Both the position numbers and the translations under genes were made by a program. The notes beneath the pieces are model-generated. The model did not search any database. It was not told the DNA's origin and saw nothing but the letters and a program-made list of their open reading frames with translations. A DNA stretch of 64,000 nt from Sphingomonas insulae (GTDB lineage: Bacteria > Pseudomonadota > Alphaproteobacteria > Sphingomonadales > Sphingomonadaceae): contig NZ_CP048422.1 in assembly GCF_010450875.1 (NCBI RefSeq), forward strand, positions 1,047,001 to 1,111,000. The letters are read 5' to 3'. Position 1 is the first letter of the stretch; every line of letters begins with the position of its first letter. Shown piece after piece: positions 14,616-22,519 of this stretch.

Positions 14616-15326
14616 ATGCAAGCTGTCATCCTCAGCGCGGGCATCGGCTCGCGGTTGTTGCCGCTGACCCGCGAGATACCGAAATGCCTGGTCGAGGTGG
14701 GCGGACGCAGCATCCTTGACCACCAGATCGATGCCCTGCATGCGGCGGGGATCGAGCGCGCTGTAATCGTCGGCGGCTATCGCTACCGCCAGATCGGCGC
14801 GCATCTGGCGCGCGCACGGCCGCCGTTGCCGGTGCGGCTGGTGTTCAACCCGTTCTGGTCGGTGGCGAGCAGCATCGGCAGCGTGTGGATGGCGCGCGAC
14901 CTGCTCCACGATCCGTTCTGCCTGATGAACGGCGACACCGTGTTCGACACGGATCTGGTCGCGGCGGCGGTGCAGGCGCCGGGCGAGGGCGTCGGCCTGC
15001 TGGTCGAGCCGCTGCGCGATGCGGCGCTGGACGACATGCTGGTGACCGTTGCCAACGGGCAGGTGTGTGCGGTGGCGAAGGACCTGGCGCCCGACGTGGC
15101 GACGCACCGGTCGCTGGGGGTGATCGTCTCGAACGGCGGCGATGCCTATGCCGGTGCGCTGGAGAGCGTCATCGCGCGGCCGGGCGGGCTCAACGCGTTC
15201 CACCATGCGATCATCGCCGACCTCGCCGGATATGCACCGGTCCGCGCGATCGTCGCGGGTGCGGGGGCGTGGCAGGAGATCGACCAGCCCGAGGATATCG
15301 CGGCCTGGACCGGACAGCACGGGTGA
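14616..15326 (+). CDS. sugar/alcohol-phosphate nucleotidyltransferase (LicC/IPCT-like)
   Basis: A 236-residue NTP transferase. The nucleotide-binding start is AVILSAGIGSRLLPLTREIPKC, with conserved K in PKCLVEVGG and the metal-binding aspartate in LMNGDTVFD. Length and the VASSIGSVWMA segment resemble cytidylyltransferases that make CDP-choline or CDP-inositol (LicC, IPCT) more than the longer GDP-mannose enzymes. The stop overlaps the ATG of the glycerophosphotransferase-like gene. As first gene of the lipid/phosphodiester cluster it probably activates the head-group alcohol; the substrate is inferred only. Confidence 0.82.
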   Translation: MQAVILSAGIGSRLLPLTREIPKCLVEVGGRSILDHQIDALHAAGIERAVIVGGYRYRQIGAHLARARPPLPVRLVFNPFWSVASSIGSVWMARDLLHDPFCLMNGDTVFDTDLVAAAVQAPGEGVGLLVEPLRDAALDDMLVTVANGQVCAVAKDLAPDVATHRSLGVIVSNGGDAYAGALESVIARPGGLNAFHHAIIADLAGYAPVRAIVAGAGAWQEIDQPEDIAAWTGQHG

Positions 15327-16438
15327 TGGCGAGCGACGTCGCGTTCCTGTTCCTGGGCGAGACGCTGCTGATCCCGCACCTGTTTCCGGTGCTGGAGGCG
15401 CTGGCCGCGGCCGAGCCGACATGGCGTATCGATGCCTGGGTGGCGACGTCGATGCACGAGGCGCTGATCGGCGGCTGGCTGGGCGCCGACACGCGCGTGC
15501 GGATCCGGCGGGCGCCGGGGTTTCGCGATCTGGGCGCATGGGATGCCGGGCGCAATCCGCCCTTGCCGGCGAAACTGCCGGTGCTCGCCCGGTTGGCGCC
15601 GCGGCTGTTGCGGACCCGGGTGGTCGTGACCGCGGAACAGACCAGCCTGTGGATACCCGCGATGCTGCCGACCCGTGCGCGGTTCGTGAACATCCTGCAC
15701 GGCGCGGGATCGATGATGAACCGCGACGACCGGCGGCGCAAGGCGGCGGCGCTGACCATCGTCGCGTCGATACGCGAGCGACAGGCGCTCGCGGCGCATG
15801 GCGTCGACCCGGCCAGCGTCGCGGTCACCGGTTATATCAAGGCGGGATTCCGCCAGCGCACGCATGTCGCGCTGGATTTCGCCGAACCGCGTGCCACGGT
15901 ACTGTATGCCCCCCATTGGCAGCGGCATCGCTCGTCCTGGTGGGAGTGGGGCGAGGCGGCGGTACGCACGGTGCTCGCCACCAACCGCTACAATCTCATT
16001 TTTGCACCGCATCAGCGGCTGGTCGAAAAGGCGCCGGAGGTGCGTGGCTTTGCGGCATCGCTGGCGGGACGCGGCGACGTGCATGTCGACCTCGACAGCT
16101 TTGCGATGGTCGATGGCAGCTATACCGCTGCGGCCGACCTGTATCTGGGCGATACGTCGAGCCAGGTCGTCGAATTCCTGATGCGGCCGCGGCCCTGCGT
16201 GTTCCTGGACCCGCGCGGCGTCGTGTGGCGGGGCGATCCCAGCTACGACATGTGGACCGCGGGCGAGGTGGTGAGCGACCTTGCCGCGCTGCCGGATGCG
16301 CTGGAAGGAGCAGCGGCGCGGCATCCGGCGTTCGTCGCCGCACAGCGGACGTTCGCCGCCGATTCCCTCGGCAACACCGACGGAACCGCGCCCCGGCGTG
16401 CGGCAGAGGCAATTTCACGCGTGTCGACAGACGGTTGA
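15326..16438 (+). CDS. CDP-glycerol glycerophosphotransferase-like protein
   Basis: A 370-residue GT-B-fold protein. It shows the family segments VLYAPHWQRHR near the middle and AADLYLGDTSSQVVEFL near residue 275, the latter corresponding to the conserved donor-binding block of TagB/TagF-type poly(glycerol phosphate) transferases. Those enzymes move glycerol phosphate from CDP-glycerol to an acceptor. Here the gene overlaps the upstream nucleotidyltransferase (TGATG), which fits donor synthesis followed by transfer. Gram-negative examples are not well characterised, so the product is uncertain. Confidence 0.7.
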   Translation: MASDVAFLFLGETLLIPHLFPVLEALAAAEPTWRIDAWVATSMHEALIGGWLGADTRVRIRRAPGFRDLGAWDAGRNPPLPAKLPVLARLAPRLLRTRVVVTAEQTSLWIPAMLPTRARFVNILHGAGSMMNRDDRRRKAAALTIVASIRERQALAAHGVDPASVAVTGYIKAGFRQRTHVALDFAEPRATVLYAPHWQRHRSSWWEWGEAAVRTVLATNRYNLIFAPHQRLVEKAPEVRGFAASLAGRGDVHVDLDSFAMVDGSYTAAADLYLGDTSSQVVEFLMRPRPCVFLDPRGVVWRGDPSYDMWTAGEVVSDLAALPDALEGAAARHPAFVAAQRTFAADSLGNTDGTAPRRAAEAISRVSTDG

Positions 16439-16485
16439 CGGCTGCCGACTATCCCGAACGCGTGGTGGACGCTATCGGGCCGGAC

Positions 16486-17616
16486 ATGGCCGCATCCGCA
16501 TCATCGCATCAGCCGATCGTCATTCCGGTCGGCGCCAATCCGACGCCGATCTGGGGCATGACCGCCGCCGAGCGGCTGCGCCGGATGGCGGCGGCACGCG
16601 GGTTGCCGCTGGCGGGCGATGCGGATGCGGCGGGTGCGCTGCTCGCCAACCTGCGATTCGCATTCGATCCGGCGTGGTTGCCGTACCTGATCGCCCGGCC
16701 GGGCACGGTCCTGACGCGCGAGGGGGTGCCGGTGCTGGCGCATGTCACGACGCCGGCGGATCGCGCCCGCGTCATGGCGGCGATGGAGGCGGACGGGCCG
16801 CTCGATCCCGGGACGCTGGCTGTGATCGCGGCGGAGGCGGACGAGGGCATCTTCAACGAGGCGCTGCGCAAGCGCGAGAAGCCGTTCGCCGAGCGGCTGG
16901 TGCCTGCCGCCGTTCCGGCCATCGAACGGGCGAGTTACACCGGTGCCTACAAGGGCGTCACCGACCTATTGACCAAGTATCTGTGGCCGGAATGGGCATT
17001 GTGGATCACGCGGCTGTGCGCGCGGGCCGGCATTTCGCCCAACCAGGTGACCGCGGTCGGATCGGTATTGTGCATCATCGCCACCATCGCCTTCTGGTAT
17101 GGCTGGTTCTGGAGCGGGCTCGCGATCGGCCTCGTCTTCATGGTGCTGGATACCGTGGATGGAAAGCTGGCGCGCTGTACGATCACGTCGTCGGCATTGG
17201 GCAACGCCTGGGATCATGGCGTCGACCTGATCCACCCGCCCTTCTGGTGGTGGGCCTGGGCGGCGGGCTGTACCCCCTACGGCCATCCGCTGAGCCATGA
17301 CGGCTTCGTCGCGGTGATCGCAGCGATGCTGTTCGGCTATGTCGCGCAGCGGCTGATCGAGGGCGCGTTCATCGCGCGGTTCGGCATGCACATCCACGTC
17401 TGGGAACGGTTCGACAGCCGATTCAGGCTGGTGACCGCGCGGCGCAACCCCAACATGGTGATCCTTTTCGCGGGCCTGGTGGTGACGCGGCCCGATTGGG
17501 GGATCGTCGCGGTCGCCGTCTGGACGATGGCGTCGCTGGTGGTACATCTGGTCCGGTTGTTCCAGGCGATGGTTGTCGCCAGACAGGGCAGAAGGATCGT
17601 CAGCTGGCTGGCATGA
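16486..17616 (+). CDS. CDP-alcohol phosphatidyltransferase with extra N-terminal domain
   Basis: A 376-residue membrane enzyme. The C-terminal half has the CDP-alcohol phosphotransferase signature D-x2-DG-x2-AR-x8-G-x3-D-x3-D, read here as DTVDGKLAR...GNAWDHGVD, plus several membrane helices. The N-terminal 165 residues (start IPVGANPTPIWG) resemble the nucleotidyltransferase half of bifunctional IPCT/DIPP synthases but lack the G-x-G-x-R loop, so this part may be non-catalytic. Homologues join a CDP-activated group to an alcohol. A TTG at 16435 overlapping the previous stop is an alternative start. Confidence 0.85.
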   Translation: MAASASSHQPIVIPVGANPTPIWGMTAAERLRRMAAARGLPLAGDADAAGALLANLRFAFDPAWLPYLIARPGTVLTREGVPVLAHVTTPADRARVMAAMEADGPLDPGTLAVIAAEADEGIFNEALRKREKPFAERLVPAAVPAIERASYTGAYKGVTDLLTKYLWPEWALWITRLCARAGISPNQVTAVGSVLCIIATIAFWYGWFWSGLAIGLVFMVLDTVDGKLARCTITSSALGNAWDHGVDLIHPPFWWWAWAAGCTPYGHPLSHDGFVAVIAAMLFGYVAQRLIEGAFIARFGMHIHVWERFDSRFRLVTARRNPNMVILFAGLVVTRPDWGIVAVAVWTMASLVVHLVRLFQAMVVARQGRRIVSWLA

Positions 17617-17620
17617 CGCG

Positions 17621-18964
17621 ATGACCAGTGCGATGTTCCGGGGCGGGCCGCAGGGCGGACCGATGCGCGCGATCGCGCGCAACCTCGGCTGGATGCTGGC
17701 GAGCCGGGGCGTGCTCGCGGTCCTCAGCCTCGTCTATCTCGCGATCGTCACGCGGACGCTGGGCGTGGCCGGCTTCGGCCGGTTCGCGCTCATCACCGGT
17801 GCCAGCCAGGCGCTGGCGACCGTGGTCGGTTTCCAGACGTGGCAGATCATCGTCCGCTATGGTCACCAGCATCTGAAACCCGGCGACGAGACGCGGCTGG
17901 CACGCCTGTTCAAGGCGTGCGGCCTGCTGGACATCGGCAGCGCGGCGATCGGCGTGGTCCTGGCGGCGGTCATCATCCACACCTGGGGCGAGGCGCTGGG
18001 CGTACGGCCGGTCCATGCGCGCGCGACGATGATCTTCACCGTCGCGCAATTGCTGTCGATCCGCTCGACGCCGCTCGGTATCCTGCGGTTGCGCGACCGG
18101 TTCTCGATCGCGGCGGCGGCGGACAGCGTGACGCCGGCGACCCGGCTGGTCGGCGCGGTGCTGGCGGCGCTGTTCCTGCCCAGCGTCACCGGATTCCTGA
18201 TCGCCTGGGGCCTGGCGGAGGTGCTGACCGCCGCGGCCTATTGGGCGGCGCTAGCGCGCAGCGGCGACCTCAAGCTGCTGTTCGCACCCGGTATCGGCGT
18301 GCGCGACGTGGTGACCGATCACCCCGGTATCGTCCGCTTTTCCCTCGCGACCAACGCCAGTTCCTCGCTCGGCCTTTCGAGCAAGCAGATCCCGCTGCTG
18401 CTGGTCGGCGGCACCGTCGGTACCGCATCGGCAGGCGCGTTCCGGCTGGCGTTGCAGCTGGCGCAGGCGCTGACCAAGGTGTCGCAACTGCTCGCCCGCG
18501 CGGCGTTTCCGGAAATCGTCCGGGCCGTCGCCGCCGGTGGGCTGGCGCGGGTGCGGCAGATGATTCTGCGCTCGTTCCTGATGGCGACGGTGGTTGCCGC
18601 CTTTGCGTTCCTGATCGTCGTGGTGTTCGGCCACCCCGTGCTGACGCTGATGGGCGGCAAGGAATTCGGCCGCGCCTATCCGATCCTGCTGTGGCTGGCG
18701 GCGGCGGGGTGCATCGATCTGGTCACCGTCGGATTCGAACCGCTGCTGCTGGCGGCTAACCGGATCGGCGCGACCTTCGTTGCCCGGCTGGTCGGGATCG
18801 CGGCGCTGTTCATGGTCAGTTTCTGGCTCAGCCCGTCGTTGGAGGTGATCGGCGTGTCGATCGCCGTGCTGGTCAACGCGGTGATCGTCGCGCTGCTGCT
18901 GGGGCTCGCCATCCAGTCGCTGCTCCAGTCCGAACAGCCCGAAATCCGGTCAAGTGACCAATAG
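17621..18964 (+). CDS. polysaccharide/lipid flippase (MATE/Wzx-like)
   Basis: A 447-residue protein with about 12 predicted membrane helices, starting MTSAMFRGGPQGG and then NLGWMLASRGVLAVLSLVY, the usual first helix of the oligosaccharide-flippase family. The TRTLGVAGFGRFAL loop after helix 1 is a family hallmark. Such proteins flip lipid-linked glycans or related amphiphiles across the inner membrane. It starts 4 nt after the phosphotransferase stop, so it is probably in one operon and a good candidate to export the cluster product. Confidence 0.85.
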   Translation: MTSAMFRGGPQGGPMRAIARNLGWMLASRGVLAVLSLVYLAIVTRTLGVAGFGRFALITGASQALATVVGFQTWQIIVRYGHQHLKPGDETRLARLFKACGLLDIGSAAIGVVLAAVIIHTWGEALGVRPVHARATMIFTVAQLLSIRSTPLGILRLRDRFSIAAAADSVTPATRLVGAVLAALFLPSVTGFLIAWGLAEVLTAAAYWAALARSGDLKLLFAPGIGVRDVVTDHPGIVRFSLATNASSSLGLSSKQIPLLLVGGTVGTASAGAFRLALQLAQALTKVSQLLARAAFPEIVRAVAAGGLARVRQMILRSFLMATVVAAFAFLIVVVFGHPVLTLMGGKEFGRAYPILLWLAAAGCIDLVTVGFEPLLLAANRIGATFVARLVGIAALFMVSFWLSPSLEVIGVSIAVLVNAVIVALLLGLAIQSLLQSEQPEIRSSDQ

Positions 18965-19082
18965 AGCGGGATAATTCCGCCGAATCATACCAATCGGCAT
19001 CAATTTTCTTGTTGGGGCCGCAATCCTGCCCATATTTGCTCCTGTGACAGTTCGATGAAGAACGCGTGACGGAGGGCGTAAC

Positions 19083-20147
19083 TTGGCCACGGTAATCAAC
19101 AGGCGACCCTCCGCCGGCGAGGCATGGGTGAGTGCGGCCGGACGGGCGATGTTCCGGCGCCCCGATACCGCGCTCGACGTGGTCGGCGAGGCGCGGATCG
19201 CGCGCGGCCCGGCGGCGATCGGCCCGGCGCCCGCACCGCTGCTGGTCGGGGTCATCGCCAATATCCGCAGCCATCGCAATATGAAGCACGGCATGCGGCT
19301 CGATCACTGGCCGGACGTGCTGTACACCGCGCCGGAAACGTTCGAGGCGCTGGAAGAGGCGCTGCGCGACTATGCGGCGCGTGGCATCGGCCTGCTGGTG
19401 GTGAACGGCGGCGACGGGACGTTGCGCGACGTGATGACCGCGGCGGCGCGGGTGTTCGACGTGATGCCGCCGATGGCGATCATCCCGTCTGGCAAGACCA
19501 ACGCGCTGGCACTGGACCTCGGCATTCCCGAAGGCTGGACGGTGCGCGATGCGATCGCCGCGGCGCAGGCCGGGCGATTCGTCGAGCGTGCGCCGGTGCA
19601 GGTGTGGCGCGGGGATGCCGCCCGGCCGGACGCATGCGGGTTCCTGCTGGGCATGGGGGGATTCGTGCGGGCGACCGAGTTGGCGCAGAGCACGCACCGC
19701 GCCGGCGCCTTCAACGGCGTGGCGGTGGCATTGTCACTCGGCTGGAGCATCGCGCAGACGCTGTTCGGCGGTGCCGGCAACGCCTGGCGCCGCGGGACCG
19801 CGGTGCGCGTGCAGGCGGACGACGAGGCGCCGGCGACGCGGCAATTGTACCTGCTGCTCGCGTCCACGCTGGAACGGATGCCGGTCGGGTTGAAGCCGTT
19901 CGGGCCGGCCCGCGCCGGGCTGAAGATGCTGACCGTGAATGCCCCGCCCCGGCACCTGTTCCGCATGCTGAAGCCAATCCTGTCGGGGACGACGGGCAGC
20001 CCCGCGGTGGCGGCAGGCTTTGCCAGGACCGACCCCCGGACGGTCCGTGTGCAGCTGGACGAGGCGTTCATCCTGGATGGCGAACATTATGCCGGGGGCG
20101 ACCTGACGATCCGTGCGGGAGCGCCGATCCGGTTCGCCGCGGCTTGA
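19083..20147 (+). CDS. diacylglycerol/sphingoid lipid kinase family protein (DAGK/LCB5)
   Basis: A 354-residue protein of the DAG-kinase catalytic family. The phosphate-binding loop is VNGGDGTLRDV and the second block is PSGKTNALALDL; near the C-terminus a DGEHYAGGD segment matches the family's closing DGE motif. Relatives phosphorylate diacylglycerol, undecaprenol, sphingoid bases or ceramide. The start is a TTG at 19083 with a strong GGAGGG ribosome site. The stop overlaps the next gene (TTGA). In a sphingolipid-making order, ceramide is a plausible acceptor, but this is inference. Confidence 0.85.
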   Translation: MATVINRRPSAGEAWVSAAGRAMFRRPDTALDVVGEARIARGPAAIGPAPAPLLVGVIANIRSHRNMKHGMRLDHWPDVLYTAPETFEALEEALRDYAARGIGLLVVNGGDGTLRDVMTAAARVFDVMPPMAIIPSGKTNALALDLGIPEGWTVRDAIAAAQAGRFVERAPVQVWRGDAARPDACGFLLGMGGFVRATELAQSTHRAGAFNGVAVALSLGWSIAQTLFGGAGNAWRRGTAVRVQADDEAPATRQLYLLLASTLERMPVGLKPFGPARAGLKMLTVNAPPRHLFRMLKPILSGTTGSPAVAAGFARTDPRTVRVQLDEAFILDGEHYAGGDLTIRAGAPIRFAAA

Positions 20148-21069
20148 GCCAAGCGGTGGCGACGACGCTGTTATCGTTCGTCGCGGACGAACTCGACGCG
20201 GCGGTGGCGCCGCCGATCGCGGCGGCGGCGCGCGCGGTGGTGAACCGGCTGCACGGCCTTGCCGTGTTGTTCTATGGATCGGTGTTGCGCACCGGCGACC
20301 TCGACGGCGTCCTCGACTTCTATGTGCTGACCCCCCGCCGCGCGGATGGGGCATGGGCGCCTGGGCGACGCGGACGCTGTGGCCGGACGTCAGCTTTCAC
20401 GAGGTCGAGGTCGGCGGCCGGATCGTCCGGGCGAAGGTCGCATCGATGCCGCTCGACACCTTCTGCCGTGCGGCGGAGGGGCGGACGATCGATACGACGG
20501 TATGGACCCGCTTCGCCCAGCCCGCAGCTCTGGTGTGGACTGCGGATCCGACGGTCGGTGCGCGCGTCGTGCGCGCCGTCGCCTATGCCGCCGCCACCGC
20601 GGCGCGGTTCGCTGCGGTGTTAGGACCGGAGAGCGGCAGGCCGGCCGATTTCTGGCTGGCGCTGTTCCGCCAGACATATTCCGCCGAATTGCGCGTCGAG
20701 GCGCCCGGGCGCGAGCGGCAGATCATCGCCTTCGACCCCGGCCGGTTCGACACGCTGCTGCCGCTGGCGTGGCAGGGGGCCGGGATCGGTCACCAACGCC
20801 GCGGAGAGCTGTACGCCCCCCTCGTGCCGGAACGCGACATGCGGGCGACGCTGGCGGCGTGGTGGTGGCGCCAGCGGCTGGGCAAGTGGCTGAACGTCGC
20901 GCGGCTCGTGAAGGCGGCGTTCACCTTCGACGGTGCCGCCCGTTACGGCCTGTGGAAGTTGCAACGCCACACCGGCATCGACCTGCCGCTGACGCCGTGG
21001 CGCGAACGGCACCCCATCCTCGCGGCCCCTGGCGTGATGTTGCGGGTGTGGCATAGGCGCGCGTCATGA
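20144..21069 (+). pseudogene. Tam41-like nucleotidyltransferase, interrupted by a frameshift at a C6 run
   Basis: The frame opens with TTG at 20144, inside the kinase stop, and encodes FYGSVLRTGDLDGVLDFYVL, a GS...D-x-D type NTase core. At CCCCCC (20331-20336) the reading continues sensibly only in the -1 frame: WPDVSFHEVEVGG, then KVASMPLDTF, to the stop at 21069. Joined, the product is about 308 residues. Its order (GYGS core, late NG/KV-S strand, then a W...P segment) resembles Tam41/Mmp37, the mitochondrial CTP:phosphatidate cytidylyltransferase. Unshifted translation would end at 20623. A mutation, a read error or -1 recoding are all possible. Confidence 0.7.
20331..20336 (+). other. six-C run at the frameshift point
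   Basis: The codons are CTG ACC CCC CGC in the upstream frame. A slip of one base backwards on CCC would re-pair fully and enter the downstream frame (CCC CCG CCG CGC). Alternatively one lost C from an original run of seven gives the same result. The run is therefore the natural site of the shift whatever its cause. Confidence 0.6.
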
Positions 21070-21839
21070 GCTTTCATGCACTGGTGCTGGCGGGATCGCG
21101 CGGTGGACCCGACCCGGTCGCCGATCATGCCGGCGTGGCCGACAAGGCGCTGATCCGGATCGATGGTGCGACGATGCTGGAGCGCGTGGTGACCGCCCTG
21201 CGCGAGGCGGGCGCGGTGCGGATCGCGGTGTCCGCCAACGCGCCTGCGGTGCGTGCCGAGGCGCTGCGGCTGGGCACCGAACCGCTGGCCGCCGCCGCCG
21301 GGCCGAGCGCGAGCACGCTGCTCGGTCTGCAGACACTGGGCGCGCCGCTGCTGGTGACGACCGCGGACCATGCCTTGTTGCGGGCGGAATGGGTGCGCGC
21401 GTTCCTGGCCGATGCACCGGGCGACAGTGACGTCGCCGCGCTGCTCGCCAGCCGCGACGCGATCGAGCGCGATTCGCCGCCGACGCGGCGCACCTACCTC
21501 CGCTTCGCCGACGGGGCATGGTCGGGGTGCAACCTGTTCCTGTGCCGCACCCCGGCAGCCGAGGCGGCGATCGGCCTGTGGATGTCGGTCGAACGGGATC
21601 GCAAGCGGCCGTGGCGGATCGTCCGGCGGTTGGGGCCGGGAACGCTGCTGCGCTACGCGACCGGGCGGTTGACCTTGCAGGCCGCGCTGGCCCGGCTGGG
21701 CGCGACGGTGGGCGTGCGGGCGGCAGCGGTGGCGGCGCGGAACGGCCTGGCGGCGGTGGACGTCGACACGCCGGCCGATCTCGACCTCGTCCGCGCGATC
21801 CTCGCCGACGGGGCGGCTCAGCCGTTCCAGTCGACCTGA
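21066..21839 (+). CDS. MobA-like NTP transferase domain protein
   Basis: A 257-residue protein with a variant nucleotidyltransferase start, ALVLAGSRGG, and the conserved lysine in DKALIRIDG. Downstream LLVTTADHALL carries the metal-binding aspartate, and a VDVDTPADLDL tail is typical of MobA/IspD-like proteins. The group transfers a nucleotide to a phosphorylated or cofactor substrate. Its start overlaps the stop of the Tam41-like gene (ATGA), tying it to the lipid cluster. The substrate is unknown. Confidence 0.75.
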   Translation: MSFHALVLAGSRGGPDPVADHAGVADKALIRIDGATMLERVVTALREAGAVRIAVSANAPAVRAEALRLGTEPLAAAAGPSASTLLGLQTLGAPLLVTTADHALLRAEWVRAFLADAPGDSDVAALLASRDAIERDSPPTRRTYLRFADGAWSGCNLFLCRTPAAEAAIGLWMSVERDRKRPWRIVRRLGPGTLLRYATGRLTLQAALARLGATVGVRAAAVAARNGLAAVDVDTPADLDLVRAILADGAAQPFQST

Positions 21840-22519
21840 CGCCAGCCGCGCTGCGCGGCGACGCGGCGCAGGGCGGCGTGGGGATTGACCACCACCGGCT
21901 CGTCCGCCCATTCGAAGCTCGGCACGTCCGAGACATGGTCGGAATAGAAGCGCACGGTCGCCCGATCCCGCGCGATGCCCTGATCCGCGAACCAGCGTTC
22001 GATCATGTCGCGCTTCGCCGGGCCGTAGCAATTGTCCCCCTCGATCCGCGGCAGCAGCCGGCCGAGACTGTCGATGGCGGTATGCGTCGCGATCAGCGCA
22101 TCGGCGCCGACGTCCCGCGCGATCGCCTCGGCATAAAAGCCATAGGCGGCGGTGGCGATGACGATGCGATGGCCATGGGCGCGGTCGGCGGCGATCTGCG
22201 CGCGCGCGCCGCGGCGGATATGGGCCGGGCCGAAGCGTGCCAGCCAGCCGGCGGCGATGTGTTCGGCGCGCGCCGGCGTCAGCGTGCCGAGCGCGGCGCG
22301 GTGCATCACCTGCTTCAACCGGTCGCGGTGGATCAGGCCCAGCGCCCTGAGCGCCGCCGCGCCGATCACCGCCGGCAGCAGCGCCAGCCGCCAGGGCGCA
22401 TGATGCGTCACCGCGTGCAGCAGGAACGGCGTCCACGTCGGCGCGCGGGTGATCGTGCGATCGAGGTCGTAGATCGCGATTTTGGCGGGCGTCGGCATCG
22501 GGTCGGCGGATGTGTCCAT
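21818..22519 (-). CDS. HAD-IB family phosphatase (PgpC/SerB-like)
   Basis: A 233-residue HAD hydrolase. The nucleophile motif is YDLDRTIT, the second motif IVIATAAYG, and the final acidic motif YSDHVSDVP. A helical cap lies between them. The HAD-IB class includes PgpC, which dephosphorylates phosphatidylglycerophosphate, and SerB. It converges on the NTP transferase, the two genes overlapping by 22 nt at their 3' ends. In this context removal of a terminal phosphate from a lipid intermediate is plausible. A second possible start lies at 22498. Confidence 0.82.
   Translation of the reverse strand: MDTSADPMPTPAKIAIYDLDRTITRAPTWTPFLLHAVTHHAPWRLALLPAVIGAAALRALGLIHRDRLKQVMHRAALGTLTPARAEHIAAGWLARFGPAHIRRGARAQIAADRAHGHRIVIATAAYGFYAEAIARDVGADALIATHTAIDSLGRLLPRIEGDNCYGPAKRDMIERWFADQGIARDRATVRFYSDHVSDVPSFEWADEPVVVNPHAALRRVAAQRGWRQVDWNG

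Follow-up and report, generated by a model that had tools for sequence, protein, structure and literature searches.

What does a compact run of eight genes in Sphingomonas insulae make? The genes, g1 to g8, lie within positions 14,616-22,519 of the stretch analysed here, a window of 64,000 nucleotides (genome G000, contig C4:1047001-1111000). They very probably form a variant of the ceramide head-group cluster that serves the ceramide phosphoglycerate (CPG), or cpg, pathway of Caulobacter, which has already been published (PMC11324152, PMC12275187). The support given here consists of homology, synteny, conserved catalytic residues and predicted folds, from which we infer the end product. Literature pairing Sphingomonas with ceramide phosphoglycerate or phosphosphingolipid contained, by title and the start of the abstract, no other work on this cluster.

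Correspondence with the Caulobacter cpg region

In Caulobacter, CpgB is a ceramide kinase and CpgD a cytidine triphosphate (CTP):phosphoglycerate cytidylyltransferase; CpgA, CpgC, CC_1152 and CC_1153 are needed genetically, and CC_1158 contributes without being essential. The available portions of the published cpg work do not assign the enzyme steps of CpgC, CpgA, CC_1153 and CC_1158. A CpgA-alignment scan of named genomes gave at least 572 confirmed loci, and the best 80 include L159 from Caulobacter vibrioides DSM 9893. Its gene order agrees with CC_1152-CC_1168 (PMC11324152), where CC_1166 and CC_1167 are identified from their place in the order, and a printed primer (PMC12275187) fits the start of its cpgD. 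Seven window proteins pair one to one with those of C. vibrioides: g1 with CpgD (35% identity), g2 with CC_1167 (35%), g3 with CpgA (43%), g4 with CC_1166 (30%), g5 with CpgB (43%), g6 with CpgC (53%) and g7 with CC_1153 (53%). The best match to CpgD in the S. insulae genome is g1 (133 bits vs 46 for the next), and a CpgB profile, which includes g5 itself, gives g5 413 bits vs 28 for the other strong genomic DAGK. By sequence, then, the cluster holds a putative CpgB-type kinase gene (g5), CpgC (g6, also seen as database protein P0243), CpgA with its motif (g3) and a CC_1153 homologue (g7). The original prediction, made before this analysis, had proposed a cluster making and flipping a phospholipid or phosphosphingolipid by a route parallel to PlsC/CdsA/PgsA. 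That core idea is supported, and the identities of CpgB, CpgC and CpgA and the grouping of CpgC with Caulobacterales in one clade (100/100) narrow the product to a ceramide lipid, and in place of an unknown route there appears to be a variant of the published one (PMC11324152, PMC12275187). The genes, with lengths in amino acids (aa) and functions predicted, are:

g1, 14616..15326, + strand: CpgD-like CTP:phospho-alcohol/acid cytidylyltransferase, 236 aa (Pfam NTP_transferase/NTP_transf_3)
g2, 15326..16438, + strand: CC_1167 relative, TagF-like (CDP-glycerol glycerophosphotransferase fold), 370 aa
g3, 16435..17616, + strand: CpgA, CDP-alcohol phosphotransferase with N-terminal extension, 393 aa from TTG 16435 or 376 aa from ATG 16486 (Pfam CDP-OH_P_transf)
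g4, 17621..18964, + strand: MOP/Wzx-type flippase, CC_1166 relative (Pfam Polysacc_synt)
g5, 19083..20147, + strand: CpgB-type ceramide kinase of the DAGK_cat family, 354 aa, TTG start (Pfam DAGK_cat)
g6, 20156..21069, + strand: CpgC, Tam41-like cytidylyltransferase, frameshifted in the present assembly
g7, 21066..21839, + strand: CC_1153 relative, MobA/CofC-like nucleotidyltransferase, 257 aa (Pfam NTP_transf_3)
g8, 21818..22519, - strand: HAD-IB phosphatase, candidate CC_1158 phosphoesterase replacement, 233 aa (Pfam HAD, TIGR01490)

All eight of the tightly spaced genes that had been described are present, and several overlap (g1/g2 by 1 base, g6/g7 by 4, the convergent g7/g8 by 22); the description needs amending in that g8 is on the opposite strand and g6 is frameshifted in the assembly. 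The G+C content of the cluster (70.1%) resembles that of the window (68.4%).

Pfam and NCBIfam scans of the window proteins bear out the lipid kinase, CDP-alcohol phosphotransferase, two NTP transferases and flippase that had been named. The match of g7 is to MobA-like NTP_transf_3, with a CofC match under the cut-off, and g8 passes TIGR01490 (HAD-IB) narrowly, at 98.8 bits vs a cut-off of 98.3, which bears out the earlier label “PgpC-like” as far as HAD-IB. No Pfam family reaches its cut-off in g2 or g6, and PF04464 matches two g2 relatives below the cut-off. Predicted structures group g2 with TagF, its model showing the TagF-type catalytic-domain fold, and a CpgC homologue with Tam41; CpgC thus models as Tam41-like, and the earlier labels “Tam41-like” and “CDP-glycerol transferase-like” agree with the models. 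The Tam41 Pfam family has no match in the S. insulae genome and none over the cut-off in 14 control genomes (one lies below it), so g6 is not settled by sequence families. A CpgC sequence profile run against the PDB gave two matches (E 0.4 and 1.1), judged chance, and viral contigs searched with one CpgC gave nothing confirmed. In print, CC_1167 was judged probably unrelated; CC_1167 and g2 are TagF-like and travel with the pathway, which is new relative to that account. Residues D222, D225, G226, A229, R230, G239, D243 and D247 of g3, which we take to be the CDP-alcohol transferase catalytic motif, are invariant in the CpgA alignment, as is GGDGT in that of g5. Comparison of g1 with other solved nucleotidyltransferases indicated no substrate. 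AF2299, a CDP-alcohol transferase whose structure is 4o6m, aligns to the CpgA profile from its position 9 onward; the N-terminal extension of g3 (window 16435-17000) may therefore be an ancient accessory domain.

The frameshift in g6 lies at about 20,330-20,352, next to a six-C run, and leaves the start and end of the gene in different frames; alignment with relatives places the length difference in the C run. An intact copy exists, since P0243 (304 aa) reproduces without mismatch a 59-residue part of the first fragment and the whole second fragment (238 residues), with six residues between them. A programmed frameshift is disfavoured because of this intact protein and because CpgC is a single frame in relatives; a sequencing error or a strain-level insertion or deletion is preferred. 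The cpgB of the relative G018 (L040:7330-8279) is also in two pieces, and a frameshift is possible there too.

The CpgD-like pocket and the phosphatase

Residues R16, N90, T93, N110, S170, M147, K161 and W201 of CpgD have been named, N90 and N110 as contacts to glycerate (PMC13228409). A CpgD-type gene occurs in 71 loci; once L167 and L168 had dropped out as weak or partial, the comparison covered 69, namely 12 Sphingomonas clusters and 57 others, made up of 6 other Sphingomonadales and 51 from the rest, C. vibrioides included. R16, K26, N110, D112, M147, K161 and S170 are kept in 12/12 Sphingomonas clusters; the active-site residues R16, K26 and D112 are among them, and the nucleotide site of g1 can, on this evidence, still suit CTP. 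All 12 also share N90 to S, K148 to L, E169 to R, Y202 to H and L203 to H, each found in 0/57 loci elsewhere, and N90, K148 and E169 are kept in 57/57. Other positions vary more widely: W201 is F or Y in 12/12 and replaced in 6/51 of the rest, S170 is replaced in 2/6 other Sphingomonadales and 2/51 of the rest, and T93 is S in Sphingomonas, as in 42/57 others. The glycerate-contacting pair is therefore only half retained in g1 (N110 is intact, N90 is S in 12/12), and because of this replacement we call g1 CpgD-like rather than CpgD. The acceptor site has been altered in a fixed way, so the Sphingomonas head group may not be glycerate.

A second difference concerns the phosphatase. Merging four duplicates among 115 fetched cpgA loci left 111 non-redundant ones, which are related to one another; families were assigned with our own profiles at 80 bits. 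The CC_1158 family is found in 83 of the 111 and the g8 HAD family in 15, never together, and the remaining 13, several of them short, have neither. In 6 of the 15 (L047, L048, L096, L112, L116, L178), cpgA and cpgD flank the HAD gene. The g8 HAD gene thus appears to stand where other loci have CC_1158, as a candidate replacement. CC_1158 has been listed as lacking in Sphingomonas wittichii, Hyphomonas neptunium and some beta- and gammaproteobacteria (PMC11324152); the CC_1158 family profile does match loci from gammaproteobacteria, L114 among them, which means that different criteria are in use.

Distribution and origin of the cluster

Co-inheritance in relatives had been set beforehand as a test that could refute the prediction, and the genes are kept together. 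In a genus set of 37 genomes, S. insulae included (g3 at E<1e-100, g6/CpgC at E<=1e-10), full-length g3 occurs in 12/37 and g6/CpgC in 13/37: both in 11, g3 alone in 1, g6 alone in 2, neither in 23 (Fisher p 1e-6, genome kinship ignored). Co-occurrence of g3 and g6 beyond chance by this test led us to set aside the idea of chance neighbours. The exceptions are G013, which has g3 on a contig that ends in g5, and G001 and G006, where g6 occurs but g3 does not. Across the fetched stretches of the g3-bearing genomes, g1, g2 and g5 are each found in 12/12, g6 and g7 each in 11/12, a g4-type flippase in 10/12 and g8 in 6/12 (split copies counted: g5 of L040 and g6 of the window, each in two pieces). 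Flanking genes are common to the window, G008 and G017; in the fetched stretches of the other nine clusters, none of the genes that flank the window cluster finds a match, so the genes seem to stay together in different surroundings.

The L226 stretch of G001 holds a HAD gene, two g2-type genes, a flippase, cpgB, cpgC and g7, and the L227 stretch of G006 holds a flippase, cpgB, cpgC and g7. Neither stretch contains cpgA or cpgD; genome-wide, cpgA was not found beyond one weak G001 match, and cpgD was not sought at that scale. These reduced stretches suggest that g5-g6-g7 forms a first module, onto which g1-g2-g3 is added.

Among 24 order-mates from other families, g3 (E<1e-60) is present in 7 and CpgC in 20, and by coordinates CpgC lies less than 2 kilobases (kb) from spt in 18 of those 20, compared with 0/13 in the genus. 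In S. insulae, spt and cerS (found by search) and cerR (by profile, L193) lie elsewhere in the genome, so the genes for ceramide synthesis are present. With spt in 57/61 genomes and CerS in 60/61, both near-universal, and a patchy cluster, ceramide is general and the head-group cluster accessory in the genus. Of the pathway's transport genes LptC2/F2/G2, LptF/LptG relatives sit beside spt in L193 (285/196 bits), second copies not being told from housekeeping ones. About 15 kb from cerS (L192:3612-6315, G000:C4), a 491-aa reading frame with NTP-transferase domains adjoins a CDP-alcohol transferase of 304 aa, and the two make a second such pair in the genome.

In a CpgC tree of 86 rows, the 13 genus rows and 16 Caulobacterales make up the 100/100 clade mentioned above, and an approximately unbiased (AU) test rejects a single clade of all Sphingomonadales CpgC rows (p 3e-6). 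The groups were named before the tree was seen; the bootstrap had not settled, and some rows have long branches or odd letter make-up. Transfer between lineages, or an old duplication followed by loss, would both explain the grouping. The published list for the pathway covers alpha-, beta- and gammaproteobacteria (PMC11324152); loci with cpgA, cpgB and cpgC in metagenome-assembled genome records of Candidatus Binatia, Myxococcales, Desulfurellaceae and Polyangiaceae (L151, L154, L161, L162, L177) fall outside it. In Dongia and some other cpg loci (L085, L086, L089, L091, L108-L111, others), lptG2 has an additional CDP-alcohol transferase next to it, and a third copy lies nearby in some genomes. 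Such paralogues (cdpOH2) were considered as alternatives to g2 across the 115 loci (g2 only 33, cdpOH2 only 21, both 2, neither 59); the counts are suggestive and were not used, duplicates and relatedness being uncorrected.

Proposed pathway, rivals and known systems

In the pathway we propose, Spt, CerS and CerR, encoded elsewhere, would make ceramide, and g5 (CpgB) would phosphorylate it to ceramide-1-phosphate. The Tam41-like g6 (CpgC) would most likely activate this with CTP to give CDP-ceramide, from which the first phospho-head group would be completed. A small phospho-acid or phospho-alcohol would be CDP-activated by g1, and g3 (CpgA), probably with g2, would extend the head group using CDP donors. 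A further nucleotide-activated unit may come from g7, g8 may remove a terminal phosphate (CC_1158's job elsewhere), and g4, to judge by its family, would flip the product.

Several points weigh against this scheme. Caulobacter still makes CPG without CpgA, CpgD or CC_1153 (PMC11324152, PMC12275187), and CpgA is required for the second phosphoglycerate only (PMC11324152). CpgA therefore cannot be the sole user of CDP-ceramide; the simple CdsA-then-PgsA logic of the original prediction, overall partly supported, conflicts with these genetics. Other difficulties lie in S. insulae itself: the identity of g1 to CpgD is no more than 35%, and it has lost N90 and W201; a CC_1158 orthologue has no match in the genome (E<=1e-10) and is found in 0/37 genus genomes (E<=1e-40), with weak matches near 1e-11 and 27-29% identity in six; the absence of g8 from half of the 12 fetched Sphingomonas stretches argues against a strict need for it there; an AcpR candidate (an acyl-carrier-like open reading frame) was spotted by eye only; aasR was not identified in the genome; and the genome encodes a further DAGK and additional NTP and CDP-alcohol transferases that could act too.

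How close the product is to the Caulobacter lipid can be read in two ways. That the cluster makes exactly CPG2, with the g1 changes as neutral drift and g2 and g4 as passengers, is a real possibility that we lean slightly against: the g1 catalytic residues and N110, M147, K161 and S170, which contact or adjoin glycerate, are kept in all 12 clusters, and CpgC and CC_1153 each share 53% identity with their C. vibrioides counterparts, but five g1 replacements found in 12/12 clusters and in 0/57 loci elsewhere speak against it, as does the presence of g2 in 12/12. A more distant product, a ceramide-anchored lipid not yet described and with a head group that is non-glycerate or a short teichoic-acid-like phosphodiester chain, seems rather unlikely. 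There g1 would make CDP-X, X not being glycerate, g2 would transfer or polymerise X on ceramide phosphate and the Wzx-type flippase would export the product; the start of g2 overlaps the end of g1, and CC_1167 would then be an overlooked CDP-donor transferase in Caulobacter.

Two further readings fare worse. The names of the DAGK_cat, Tam41 and CDP-alcohol families come from glycerolipids, yet a diacylglycerol-based glycerophospholipid cluster is very improbable given the resemblance of g5 to CpgB, its margin over the other DAGK in a profile containing it, and the closeness of CpgC to spt in 18/20 order-mates with CpgC. A surface-polysaccharide or capsule locus with unrelated lipid enzymes could have a TagF-like protein and a Wzx-like flippase, and the genome does hold a second g2-type gene, divergent from a flippase and beside a GINT1_N protein (L210, G000:C4:2224500-2243500), itself possibly a further envelope-lipid locus; GINT1_N is the glucosamine inositolphosphorylceramide transferase domain. 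However, the eight window genes include no glycosyltransferase family, and relatives of g3, g5, g6 and g7 sit with ceramide genes elsewhere, which makes this reading hardly credible.

The variant cpg reading matters because it yields assignments that can be tested. CpgC would be a CTP:ceramide-1-phosphate cytidylyltransferase of Tam41-like type, two families unrelated to each other would serve the phosphatase step, and CC_1167 would have a role. The reading also draws attention to a lineage where the head group may have changed, in a pathway whose anionic phosphosphingolipid can stand in for lipopolysaccharide in Caulobacter (PMC12275187, PMC13228409). New beyond the Caulobacter work are the proposed g8/CC_1158 swap, the TagF-like g2/CC_1167, the CpgC-Tam41 model, the altered CpgD-like pocket, and the patchy cluster with CpgC grouping with Caulobacterales.

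Among known systems, the CDP-diacylglycerol synthase Tam41 differs from CpgC by its 11-14% identity, the lack of a Pfam Tam41 match and the presumed ceramide-1-phosphate substrate of CpgC. The TagF/TarL teichoic acid polymerases share with g2 their fold and HG, PH and D.SS residues, but identity is about 12%, the match is under the Pfam cut-off and the setting is a Gram-negative lipid locus. IPCT/DIPPS (di-myo-inositol phosphate synthesis) offers the same logic of CDP-X, CDP-alcohol transferase and phosphatase, the phosphatase step being part of that pathway, and each half of NF041135 has a match far under the cut-off, one in g1 and the other in g3; the window differs in its separate genes and lipid pathway context. 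Closest is the Caulobacter crescentus cpg (CPG/CPG2) region CC_1152-CC_1168, with relatives of CpgA, CpgB, CpgC, CC_1153, CC_1166 and CC_1167 and a CpgD-like protein in common, whereas in S. insulae the ceramide genes are unlinked, the layout is compact, the CpgD pocket is altered, and a HAD phosphatase lies nearby in place of the missing CC_1158.

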